The notes beneath the pieces were generated by a model. That model did no database searches, had not been told where the DNA came from, and was given only the letters and a program-made list of their open reading frames with translations. 64,000 bases of DNA from NCBI RefSeq assembly GCF_003268885.1, contig NZ_QLSX01000002.1, forward strand, positions 124,001 through 188,000, in the 5' to 3' direction. The DNA is from Onishia taeanensis (GTDB lineage Bacteria; Pseudomonadota; Gammaproteobacteria; Pseudomonadales; Halomonadaceae). A program made the position numbers and the translations under genes. Shown piece by piece: positions 6,004 through 9,940 of this stretch (its first letter is position 1; each line of letters opens with the position of its first letter).

Positions 6004-7104
6004 CTAGAGCCAGCCGCCGAGCTCCTGCCTGGCGATCGCCGTAAGCACATCGATATGCGCCTCGTCGGCGTTTAGGCAGGGCACATAGGTGAAGGTCTCG
6101 CCGCCGGCGGAGAGGAAGGCCTCGCGGATTTCCTGCTGCACTTCCTCGAGCGTCTCGACGCAGTCCGAGGCGAAGGCCGGCGAGATTACCGCGATGTGCT
6201 TTTTGCCCGCCCGGGCAAGCTCGGCCACCTTGTCAACGGTCGCCGGCCCGACCCATTTCTCGGGGCCGAACTTGGACTGGAAGGCGGTCACGATCTCATC
6301 GTCCGCCATCTCCAGATGTTCCTTCACCAGCCGCGTCGTCTTCTGGCATTGGCAATGGTAGGGATCGCCATCGAGCAGATAGCGCTCGGGCACCCCATGA
6401 TAGGACGCCACCAGCACCTCGGGGCGGCCACCCTGATCGGCCTGGGCCCGGTCATAGGCCACCTGGATCGAGCCGCCCAGGGCCGCGATATAATCCGGCC
6501 GATCGAAGTAGGCCGGCACGGTACGCAGCGCCGGCTGCCACTTCAGCGTCATCAGGGTACGAAAGACCTCATCGTTGGCGGTGGCGGTAGTCGGCGAGCC
6601 GTATTGCGGGTAGAGCGGAAAGAACAGCAGCCGCTCGCAGCCCTGCTCATGCAGCCGGCGAATCACGCTGTCGGTCGAGGGGTTGCCATAGCGCATGCAG
6701 AAATCGACCACCACCTCATCGCCGAAGGCCGCCTCGAGGCGCTCGGCGACTTTTTCGGCCTGTTCGCGGGTAATGGTCAACAGCGGGCTCTCGTCGCGCT
6801 CGGTGTTCCAGATGCTTTGATAGGCCTTGCCGGAGATGAAGGGGCGGCGAGTCAGGATGATGCCCTGCAACAGCGGCTGCCACAGCCAACGGGAGTAATC
6901 GACCACCCGCTGATCGGAGAGAAACTCCGACAGATAGCGGCGCATCGACCAGTAGTCGGTGGCATCCGGGGTGCCCAGGTTGGCCAATACCACGCCCACC
7001 TTCTTGCGCGGCACCGGCGGATGATCGGCGCCGGCATGAGCAAGGCGCCCTTCGCCGGGCTGTTCGAGGGTGGCGGTGGGCGAACGGGGACTGGCTGCGG
7101 ACAT
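6004..7104 (-). CDS. hemH: Ferrochelatase
   Basis: A 366-residue ferrochelatase that inserts Fe2+ into protoporphyrin IX, the last step of heme synthesis. Family motifs are VGVVLANLGTPD near the N-terminus, the catalytic-His motif SYHGVPERY, and GDPYHCQCQKTTRL shortly after it. The ATG at 7104 is preceded by AAGGA 8 nt away. A TTG-started extension of 16 residues is open but lacks a ribosome site. A ~35-residue polar N-terminus before the core is longer than in E. coli. The gene is convergent with mrp and divergent from the photolyase. Confidence 0.94.
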   Translation of the reverse strand: MSAASPRSPTATLEQPGEGRLAHAGADHPPVPRKKVGVVLANLGTPDATDYWSMRRYLSEFLSDQRVVDYSRWLWQPLLQGIILTRRPFISGKAYQSIWNTERDESPLLTITREQAEKVAERLEAAFGDEVVVDFCMRYGNPSTDSVIRRLHEQGCERLLFFPLYPQYGSPTTATANDEVFRTLMTLKWQPALRTVPAYFDRPDYIAALGGSIQVAYDRAQADQGGRPEVLVASYHGVPERYLLDGDPYHCQCQKTTRLVKEHLEMADDEIVTAFQSKFGPEKWVGPATVDKVAELARAGKKHIAVISPAFASDCVETLEEVQQEIREAFLSAGGETFTYVPCLNADEAHIDVLTAIARQELGGWL

Positions 7105-7178
7105 CGTGGAATCCTTGTGACGTAACCGACTGATGGATCGACAGCTTATCAAAGGGATGCCATCGAGAAGAATGCAGT

Positions 7179-7202
7179 TATACTATCATCCATATTTGTA
7201 TA
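7179..7202. promoter_or_regulatory. Probable LitR/PplR-type light-regulator operator
   Basis: The 24 bp read TATACT-N12-TGTATA, nested in the longer inverted repeat GTTATAC-N14-GTATAAC (7177-7204). As I recall, the binding consensus of the MerR-family B12/light regulator PplR1 of Pseudomonas putida is T(G/A)TACA-N12-TGTA(C/T)A; this site fits 11 of 12 defined positions. It sits 15 bp before the photolyase start codon, in the right place to repress a photolyase promoter in the dark. No regulator gene is in the window, so this is inference from sequence. Confidence 0.55.
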
Positions 7203-7217
7203 ACTTCAGGTCAATAT

Positions 7218-8909
7218 ATGTCTAAGCCGCTGATCCTGGTGCTGGGTGATCAGCTCAGTCCGTCGATGGCGAGTCTTCAAGACCTGCCGGACAGCGCCGT
7301 GGTGGCGCTTTGCGAGGTCGACGAAGAAGGTCGCTACGTGCCCCACCACCCGCAGAAGATCGCGATGATGTTCGCCGCCATGCGCCACTTCGCCATCGAA
7401 CTCGAGGCATCGGGCGTACAGGTGCATTACAGCACTCTTGACGATGACGACAATTGCCAGCAGCTGCTCGCCGAGGCCGAGCGAGTGGCCGCCCTCCATG
7501 GCTGCGACGAGATCCGCGTGGTCCGCCCCGGTGAGTGGCGGCTGCATGCGGCCATTCAGGCTCGCGCAACTGCGGGTCAGTCCCTCGCCAATGCGAGTGG
7601 CGAAGGTGAAAGGGGCGAAAGTGGCGAAAGTGGCGAAAGTGGCGAAAGACAGCATACCGCCCTGCCCTGGCGGCTAATCGAAGACGACCGCTTCTTTACC
7701 ACACCAGCGGACTTCAACGCCTGGGCCCGGGGCCGCAAGACCTATCGCCTCGAACACTTCTACCGGCATCTTCGCAAGCGCAGCGGGCTGTTGATGGAAG
7801 ACGGCCAGCCCGCCGGCGGCCAGTGGAACTTCGATCACGATAACCGCGAGCCGCTGCCCGAGCATCTCGCCTTTCCCGCGCCGCCGACCCATGAACACGA
7901 CGCCACCACCAAGGCGGCACTGGAGCTGGTGGCCTCGCGGTTCGGGGAGCATTTCGGCTCTCTCGACACATTTCACTGGCCGGTGACCAGGACACAGGCA
8001 CTTGCCGAACTTGAGCATTTCCTCAACGCCTGCCTGCCGGACTTCGGCCGCTATCAGGACGCGCTGAGTGACCAGGCGCCCTTCCTCTTCCACTCACGGC
8101 TGTCGGCGGCGCTGAACCTGGGTCTGCTGTCGCCCGTCGAGGTCTGTCAGTCCGCCGAGGTCGAGTATCGCGAAGGGCGTGCGCCACTCAACTCGGTGGA
8201 GGGCTTCATCCGCCAGATTCTTGGTTGGCGAGAATATGTGCGAGGGCTCTACTGGACGCGCATGCCCGACTACAAGCGCAGCAACGGCCTAGGCGCCAAG
8301 CGTGACTTGCCGGCCTTTTTCTGGACCGGCGACACCGAGATGCGCTGCCTCAAGCGGGCCATCGAGATGACCCGCGATCACGCCTATGCCCACCACATTC
8401 AGCGGCTGATGGTCACGGGTAACTTCGCCCTCCTCTGCGGGGTCAAGCCGGAAGCCCTCTGCGACTGGTATCTGGCGGTGTATGCCGATGCCTGTGAATG
8501 GGTCGAGCTGCCCAACACCCTGGGCATGGTGCTGCATGCTGACGGCGGCCTGATGGGCTCCAAGCCCTACTGCGCCTCGGGCAAATACATCGATCGCATG
8601 GGCGATCACTGCAAGCACTGTCGCTATGACCCAAAACACGTCACCGGCACTCATGCCTGCCCCTTCAATAGCCTCTATTGGAATTTCATCGAAGCGCACC
8701 GCGACGTCCTGGCCGACAACCCGCGCATGAAGCTGATCTATGGCTCACTTGGCCGCATGAAAGACGAGAAGCGTGAGGCCATGCGCCAGCAGGCCGACGC
8801 CTTCCTGGCGCGCCTGGACACGGCGCCCGCCTATGGGCGAGGCCAGCACCTGGCAGGCTATCGTGACGCCGATAGCTCAGCCCCCACCACCTACCAGGAG
8901 CCTTCCTGA
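7218..8909 (+). CDS. FeS-type bacterial cryptochrome/photolyase
   Basis: A 563-residue flavoprotein of the FeS-BCP (PhrB, prokaryotic (6-4) photolyase) family, which repairs UV lesions with light. The N-terminal DUF523-like antenna domain begins KPLILVLGDQLSPSM. The C-terminal catalytic domain contains the four cluster Cys: C377, C465, C468 and C481. Their spacing matches C350/C438/C441/C454 of Agrobacterium PhrB at a constant offset of 27. Part of that offset is a Gly-Glu-Ser-rich insertion (residues ~130-145) encoded by a 9-bp tandem repeat. The stop codon overlaps the start of the next gene by one base. Confidence 0.93.
   Translation: MSKPLILVLGDQLSPSMASLQDLPDSAVVALCEVDEEGRYVPHHPQKIAMMFAAMRHFAIELEASGVQVHYSTLDDDDNCQQLLAEAERVAALHGCDEIRVVRPGEWRLHAAIQARATAGQSLANASGEGERGESGESGESGERQHTALPWRLIEDDRFFTTPADFNAWARGRKTYRLEHFYRHLRKRSGLLMEDGQPAGGQWNFDHDNREPLPEHLAFPAPPTHEHDATTKAALELVASRFGEHFGSLDTFHWPVTRTQALAELEHFLNACLPDFGRYQDALSDQAPFLFHSRLSAALNLGLLSPVEVCQSAEVEYREGRAPLNSVEGFIRQILGWREYVRGLYWTRMPDYKRSNGLGAKRDLPAFFWTGDTEMRCLKRAIEMTRDHAYAHHIQRLMVTGNFALLCGVKPEALCDWYLAVYADACEWVELPNTLGMVLHADGGLMGSKPYCASGKYIDRMGDHCKHCRYDPKHVTGTHACPFNSLYWNFIEAHRDVLADNPRMKLIYGSLGRMKDEKREAMRQQADAFLARLDTAPAYGRGQHLAGYRDADSSAPTTYQEPS
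7614..7649. repeat. 9-bp tandem repeat inside photolyase gene
   Basis: Four units of GGCGAAAGT (the last is GGCGAAAGA) run from 7614 to 7649, with more degenerate copies just upstream. The period is a multiple of three, so the frame is kept, and the repeat encodes a GES/GER run in a loop of the antenna domain. It is a likely site of length variation between strains. Confidence 0.85.
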
Positions 8910-9322
8910 TGTCCCCAACCGCCCCGCCACCCCGCCATGCCGTCTCCCCCGTGACGCTCTTTCACGACGGTCACTGCCCCTTCTGCCAGCGCGAAGTCGC
9001 TTGGCTCGAGCGGCATCCGCGCCGCGACCGCGTCAGGCTGGTCGATATCCAGGCCGATGACTTCGATGCGGCCGCTTGGGGGCGCTCCTTCGACGCCATG
9101 ATGGGCCGCCTTCACCTCGCTGATGCCAAGGGCGCCTGGTTCGTGGGCATGGATGCCAGCCGGGCACTGTATGCCGTGCTGGGCTATCGGCGGCTGGTAG
9201 GACTGACGATGCTGCCGGGCCTGGCCTGGTGTTTCGACCGCGGCTATGCGTTCTTCGCCCGCTATCGGGTCAGGCTGGGTAACTGGTGGCAAGCAAGGCA
9301 GCGCCGGCAAGAGAAGGCCTGA
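8909..9322 (+). CDS. DCC-family thiol-disulfide oxidoreductase-like protein
   Basis: A 137-residue protein of the DUF393/DCC (YuxK-like) family. The hallmark LFHDGHCPFCQREVAWLER occurs at residues ~16-35, giving a thioredoxin-like CPFC motif. The later GYRRLVGLTMLPGLAWCFDRGYAFFARYR is also typical of the family. The precise biochemical role is not established. The ATG overlaps the photolyase stop (TGATG), so the two are co-translated; DCC proteins next to photolyase or light-regulated genes are common in proteobacteria. Confidence 0.85.
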   Translation: MSPTAPPPRHAVSPVTLFHDGHCPFCQREVAWLERHPRRDRVRLVDIQADDFDAAAWGRSFDAMMGRLHLADAKGAWFVGMDASRALYAVLGYRRLVGLTMLPGLAWCFDRGYAFFARYRVRLGNWWQARQRRQEKA

Positions 9323-9637: not shown

Positions 9638-9940
9638 CTAGAAGACCAGCGGCATACGCGAGCTGAGCGCATCGTGGTAGTGGGCGTCACGGCCGATCAC
9701 CTCGTCGTGGGCCACATACTGCACCAGATAGGCCCGGTGGACGCCGACCCGCTTGAGTTCCAGATAGATATCATCGAGGGCGCGAAAGAGCATCGGCTTG
9801 CCGCGCTGGGTCAGCAGATGACGCGCGCCCTCGATATCTTCCAGTTCCACTTGATAGAAGCGGCTGCCGGCGTGGCTGATGACGCGAATTTCGAAGTTGT
9901 CGTGTCGCTTGGCGAAAGCCTTGAAGTCTTTAAGTTCCAT
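9638..9940 (-). CDS. Conserved small protein, DUF6482-like
   Basis: A 100-residue soluble protein with no signal peptide. It begins MELKDFKAFAKRHDNFEIRVISHAG and has a mixed alpha/beta pattern ending in an acidic-aromatic tail. The style and length resemble the DUF6482 proteins of Pseudomonas and Halomonas, which have no known function; this match is from memory. The ATG at 9940 follows AGGAGGA at ideal spacing. The reading frame stays open 49 codons upstream, but that extension has no ribosome site. Confidence 0.7.
   Translation of the reverse strand: MELKDFKAFAKRHDNFEIRVISHAGSRFYQVELEDIEGARHLLTQRGKPMLFRALDDIYLELKRVGVHRAYLVQYVAHDEVIGRDAHYHDALSSRMPLVF

Follow-up and report, generated by a model that had tools for sequence, protein, structure and literature searches.

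In Onishia taeanensis an inverted repeat lies between an FeS-type photolyase gene (phr) and the divergent ferrochelatase gene hemH, which raises the question of which regulator binds there and which of the two genes it serves. The locus was analyzed in a window of 64,000 nucleotides (the whole stretch of DNA under study) and compared with a family sample of 151 Halomonadaceae genomes. The sites, the genes around them, their conservation and their co-occurrence with candidate regulators support, with a probability of about 0.75, the reading that a class II LitR regulator, paired with a short blue-light receptor of the LOV type, uses the repeat as an operator common to the FeS-photolyase-DCC operon on the forward strand and to hemH on the reverse strand. 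The features concerned are listed in Table 1.

Table 1. Genes and putative regulatory elements around the hemH-phr intergenic stretch (window coordinates).
Feature	Position	Strand	Remark
hemH, ferrochelatase	6004..7104	-	Opposite orientation to phr; ATG at 7104 assumed as start
Candidate extended -10 of a second hemH promoter (TGATAAGCT)	7143..7151	-	Weak here
Inverted repeat around the operator	7173..7208	.	11-nt arms, 91% complementary
Predicted LitR-type operator, TATACT-N12-TGTATA	7179..7202	.	11/12 to PplR consensus; upstream of 62/87 family FeS-phr genes
Candidate phr -10 in the left half-site (TATACT 7179-7184 or TACTAT 7181-7186)	7179..7186	+	
FeS-type photolyase/cryptochrome gene (phr)	7218..8909	+	PF04244; closest solved chain CryB 3zxs
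DCC1-like thiol-disulfide oxidoreductase	8909..9322	+	Start overlaps phr stop
Gene taken by us to be PA4642-like	9638..9940	-	Many genomes without the phr-DCC pair have it next upstream of hemH

The first-pass annotation had described the site as agreeing at 11 of 12 positions with the PplR consensus, and direct reading of TATACT-ATCATCCATATT-TGTATA against TRTACA-N12-TGTAYA, the Pseudomonas-derived PplR1 consensus as quoted in PMC9758184, confirmed this exactly. The site was the sole match with at most one mismatch across the 64-kb window, of which 100 shuffles gave a mean of 0.04 such matches (at least one match in 4 of the 100), and of 20,000 dinucleotide-based shuffles of the 113 bp between hemH and phr only 0.165% scored 11/12 or better. 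The inverted repeat extends beyond the site, with arms at 7173-7183 and 7198-7208. The core TRTAC-N14-GTAYA was found at 47 places against 32 for the control when seven genomes of the genus were summed; in the 3.74-Mb O. taeanensis genome the reversed control matched at 8 places and the core at 7, indicating no enrichment. Counting of the motif genome-wide was therefore dropped as proof of an operator; by itself the motif is weak, and the case leans on conservation, position and context. At position 6 of the left half-site, read towards phr, each of 58 aligned sites had T or G and none had the consensus A. An explanation of this T by the phr -10 was weakened, because identical letters are kept at hemH in genomes lacking phr.

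The phr product aligned end to end with the solved FeS-BCP/CryB-PhrB photolyases (3zxs, E 2e-168; 4dja, E 8e-157), and the cysteines of these proteins (C-x2-C and a later C) aligned with cysteines of the phr product, so that an FeS cluster is predicted from the sequence. A 9-bp tandem repeat within the gene (GAAAGTGGC, 4.6 copies, window 7608-7648) inserts a Gly-Glu-Ser stretch where the alignments of most relatives break. The phr stop codon (TGA 8907-8909) overlaps the ATG of the DCC gene at 8909, and a DCC gene was found downstream of phr in 27/30 and 47/59 loci of two family sets, supporting the earlier proposal that the DCC protein belongs to the operon.

An FeS-phr match was present in 89 of the 151 family genomes, and 87 loci entered the site count after two weak or fragmentary matches (G003 and G071) had been left out. 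A site of at least 11/12 was located upstream of 62 of these 87 genes, in agreement with the earlier assignment of the operator to the FeS-photolyase promoter. In the main scan, in which the start was located for 81 loci, 58 had such a site within 200 bp, 56 of them at -38 to -40. With the pattern reversed as a control, no locus reached 11 and one reached 10. G098 carries an 11/12 site at -39 before phr, and in G057, G045, G030 and G079 one lies some 64-65 bp upstream of the first phr start codon in frame. In a second, named set that partly overlaps the 87 loci, the site was found in 53/59 family loci, all at -38 to -40 and among them L434 and L462, which represent Vreelandella venusta and Chromohalobacter israelensis, and in 0/21 FeS-phr loci from outside the Halomonadaceae. 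Likewise, none of 23 FeS-phr loci from six other families of the order had a site of at least 11/12 in about 1.1 kb upstream, where the best score was 10.

The gene on the other side of the site, hemH, was overlooked by the first-pass annotation. A hemH match was present in all 151 family genomes, and hemH was divergent from phr, with an intergenic stretch common to both, in 74 of the 87 phr loci (58/59 in the named set). The site was sought at hemH in 70 family genomes that have no intact FeS-phr beside it (60 promoters fetched and 10 taken from the loci), and an operator of at least 11/12 was found in 31. Among the 60 fetched promoters it was present in 22/54 from phr-less genomes and in 0/6 from genomes with phr elsewhere (control 0), and of the 10 taken from the loci nine scored 11/12, G112 being without a site. 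This set includes G071 with its phr fragments, G101 with a divergent DCC gene and G137 with phr elsewhere. At 24 of the 31 sites the upstream neighbour found was a PA4642-like gene running in the same direction as hemH, leaving these sites with no evident divergent gene. Between this neighbour and the operator lay at most 100 bp in 15 of the 24 and 145-251 bp in the other nine, where a small gene could be accommodated. The hemH sites of phr-less genomes span several genera, and several weaker hemH promoters retain part of the layout. Several phr-less genomes have only the DCC gene divergent from hemH (L006 of G006, L288, L293, L323, L327, L330 and others), an arrangement suggestive of phr loss with retention of DCC.

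These counts bear on the alternative that the operator serves the photolyase-DCC operon only, its closeness to hemH being accidental. The tight placement of 57 of the 62 sites at 38-40 bp before the phr ATG is what such an operator would give, light induction of FeS cryptochrome genes is known from Pseudomonas (PMC9758184), and some hemH-only sites may be leftovers of phr loss, as the phr fragments of G071 allow. Retention of the site at hemH in 31/70 genomes without an intact adjacent phr, and its persistence over several genera, nevertheless make this alternative unlikely. The site is probably also, and perhaps first, a hemH operator. We lean slightly towards a stronger form of this proposal, in which hemH is an independently kept class II LitR-LOV target in the Halomonadaceae: blue light would de-repress ferrochelatase and so drain the photosensitiser protoporphyrin IX, the same operator would switch on the FeS photolyase, and a second promoter would supply housekeeping heme. 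A candidate for that promoter is an extended -10-like element in the hemH direction, TGNTANNNT, seen in 26/28 and 54/57 aligned relatives about 27 nt past the operator; it is weak in the O. taeanensis genome. If only this downstream element were used, the operator would sit near -54 of hemH, an odd position for a simple repressor.

The regulator had been expected outside the window, and a LitR/PplR-type gene was indeed found there, on contig C12. It was the only LitR-sized gene among seven MerR matches in the genome (303 aa, L015:7636-8547, minus strand), and its promoter carries a 12/12 site. Behind litR lie genes for a class I-type photolyase (phr), SnoaL-like, SDR, FAD oxidoreductase, DUF1365, CMAS and DUF2878 proteins, and the order litR-phr-SDR-FAD oxidoreductase-CMAS recurs in loci of other families. 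With W permitted at the inner base of each half-site, 27/30 family litR promoters scored at least 11/12; as a positive control, 12/12 sites were seen at litR operons in four or five genomes from outside the family (f21). The litR promoter of G137 (L223, in the set L209-L228) has TGTACA-N10-TGTACA in place of the N12 spacing.

The first-pass annotation had attributed the site to a MerR-type, B12-dependent light sensor. A MerR gene of LitR size is present; its dependence on B12 was not supported. In the predicted LitR model (mean pLDDT 86) the best fold match was Thermus CarH (5c8d), which was also the best sequence match, and the model resembles class I LitR/CarH in its MerR HTH, helical bundle and Rossmann-like fold, matching the CarH cobalamin-binding domain. 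It differs in that no Pfam B12 domain, including B12-binding_2 (PF02607), matched up to E 10, and in that E-H and H of 5c8d align with Q-R and G in LitR. We take E-H and H to be the B12 ligands of CarH. A CarH-like regulator without these ligands means that the B12-sensor proposal is probably wrong; from model and alignment we infer a LitR that would be CarH-like in fold and would not bind B12. PF02607 is reported for PmlR1 and PmlR2, and PplR and PmlR proteins act without B12, the short LOV protein being the sensor (PMC9758184). By analogy with Pseudomonas mendocina (PMC9758184), LOV is the likely light sensor in O. taeanensis as well. That a B12-dependent class I LitR/CarH binds the site is thus very improbable: the CarH match in fold and sequence favours it, as does a passage of PMC11417400 that in passing calls class II LitR B12-dependent, against which stand the absent domains, the replaced residues and the reported B12 independence of the class.

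LitR-like matches were found in 147 of the 151 family genomes, four of them marginal. The operator was present at hemH in 93/116 genomes with a LitR of at least 55% identity and in 0/28 with a more distant or no LitR (7 of the 151 genomes were left out of this count), an association with a Fisher p of 4e-16 that ignores phylogeny and uses a 55% cut picked after viewing the list. A close LitR without an 11/12 site at hemH was seen in 23 of the 116. Since hemH is present in all 151 genomes and the operator in none of the 28, hemH does not require the element. A mere TATA-rich core promoter of hemH and phr that resembles the PplR consensus by chance, as the -10-like TATACT and the chance-level core counts might suggest, is therefore highly improbable, the more so as some genomes without a close LitR (e.g. 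G050, G015 and G072) have divergent hemH and phr and as the litR and folE promoters bear the same motif.

The proposed light receptor is a short LOV protein of 157 aa with the motif DCRFLQ, which contains the photoactive cysteine; it is encoded near the end of contig C4 (L045:5768-6241) and matches the Pseudomonas short-LOV chains 3sw1 and 7r5n at E 4e-53 or better. LOV matches at E 1e-52 or better were counted by hand in 126/151 family genomes. The lov gene is not adjacent to litR, and no site was found in the lov promoters of 30 family loci (best 10/12). An apparent start of a transposase gene, recognized by eye, lies just past lov at the contig end (L045:6562-6790). Two longer proteins (L020; L021-L022) have the LOV-type cysteine motifs NCRFLQ and SCRFLQ.

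The search for further sites suggested by the first-pass annotation yielded, besides that of litR, 11/12 sites at folE and at a fasciclin gene of the O. taeanensis genome. The folE site was present in six of the seven genus genomes, the seventh having no folE match, and a folX-like gene of the FolB family lies behind folE in O. taeanensis. Among family folE promoters 16/30 scored at least 11/12 (control 0). Similarity of the site sequence identified the fasciclin-gene site in 5/7 genus genomes; the gene itself was read in O. taeanensis only. Other candidates were set aside: the core sites C1:474710 and C15:16493 fall within long reading frames, the core site C9:46073 near cysZ recurs in the same species only, and a site at a puuE-like gene (TATACA-N12-TGTATA, 49 bp upstream; L201 and L196) was seen in G070 and G081 only.

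Like the regulator and the operator, most targets have counterparts in the class II LitR-LOV systems of Pseudomonas, which makes this a new instance of a known system. Operator consensus, regulator class and LOV partner are like those of PplR1-3/PpSB-LOV of P. putida and PmlR2/PmSB-LOV of P. mendocina, and the targets are alike as well, namely a litR-phrB-ufaM type cluster, cryB and folE/folX (PMC9758184). The genes pmlR1, phrB, ufaM, cryB and folM-folE-folX are reported to be light-induced, and the litR cluster of O. taeanensis resembles the one described for pmlR1 (PMC9758184). The differences are the Halomonadaceae host, a single litR-size gene where Pseudomonas has two or three, and a lov gene apart from litR, whereas pmlR2 and pmSB-LOV lie together; adjacency was not treated as defining, nor was PF02607, which LitR here lacks and PmlR1 and PmlR2 have, treated as defining class II LitR. 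The photolyase operator would also differ in being common to a divergent hemH.

PmlR2 is a repressor to which illuminated PmSB-LOV binds, acting through the HTH domain and abolishing DNA binding (PMC9758184), and by homology the same working may hold here. Binding, the effect of light, the sign of control and the promoters used are what we infer from this likeness. In the dark, LitR bound to the inverted repeat would cover the phr -10 region, would cover or flank a hemH promoter, and would hold transcription down. Blue light would form the cysteine adduct in LOV, which would then bind the HTH domain of LitR and take LitR off the DNA, so that photolyase, DCC protein and extra ferrochelatase would be produced together. 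The separate extended -10 promoter could maintain basal hemH expression in the dark, which would suit a gene that is needed then too. The same LitR would govern its own phr/ufa-type operon, folE-folX and the fasciclin gene.

The new part is hemH as a predicted target. Neither hemH nor ferrochelatase is mentioned in the main text of PMC9758184, as distinct from its supplement. No statement on a LitR-controlled hemH was found in literature on ferrochelatase with LitR/CarH or on hemH with light and photolyase, nor in that on LitR in Halomonas or, among the best 10 of 175, on LOV/MerR in Halomonas; the target list of Sumi et al. 2020 may include hemH. The target is biologically sensible, since a Shewanella hemH1 hemH2 double mutant is reported to be light-sensitive and ferrochelatase loss light-lethal (PMC6664582), and a light-driven ferrochelatase would thus protect the cell directly from the phototoxicity of its own porphyrins. 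According to PMC4336711, the RpoE2-ChrR regulon of Shewanella oneidensis likewise groups phrB-cfa, the photolyase-related SO_4169 and a ferrochelatase gene, hemH2; it differs in its regulator, an ECF sigma factor instead of LitR-LOV, and in that hemH2, a paralogue, shares an operon with a glutathione peroxidase gene. If the proposal is true, one light receptor would both dispose of a phototoxin that the cell itself makes and repair the damage it causes, and the recently described class II LitR-short LOV system of Pseudomonas would extend to a whole halophile family, with predicted targets.

In other-family genomes of f21 (L405-L408) hemH is paired with a TIGR01777-like gene, and a 12/12 site separates this pair from a divergent FAD oxidoreductase gene; the rudS-like-litR-phr operon is adjacent. 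The position of the site suggests a possible link to hemH in those genomes too.
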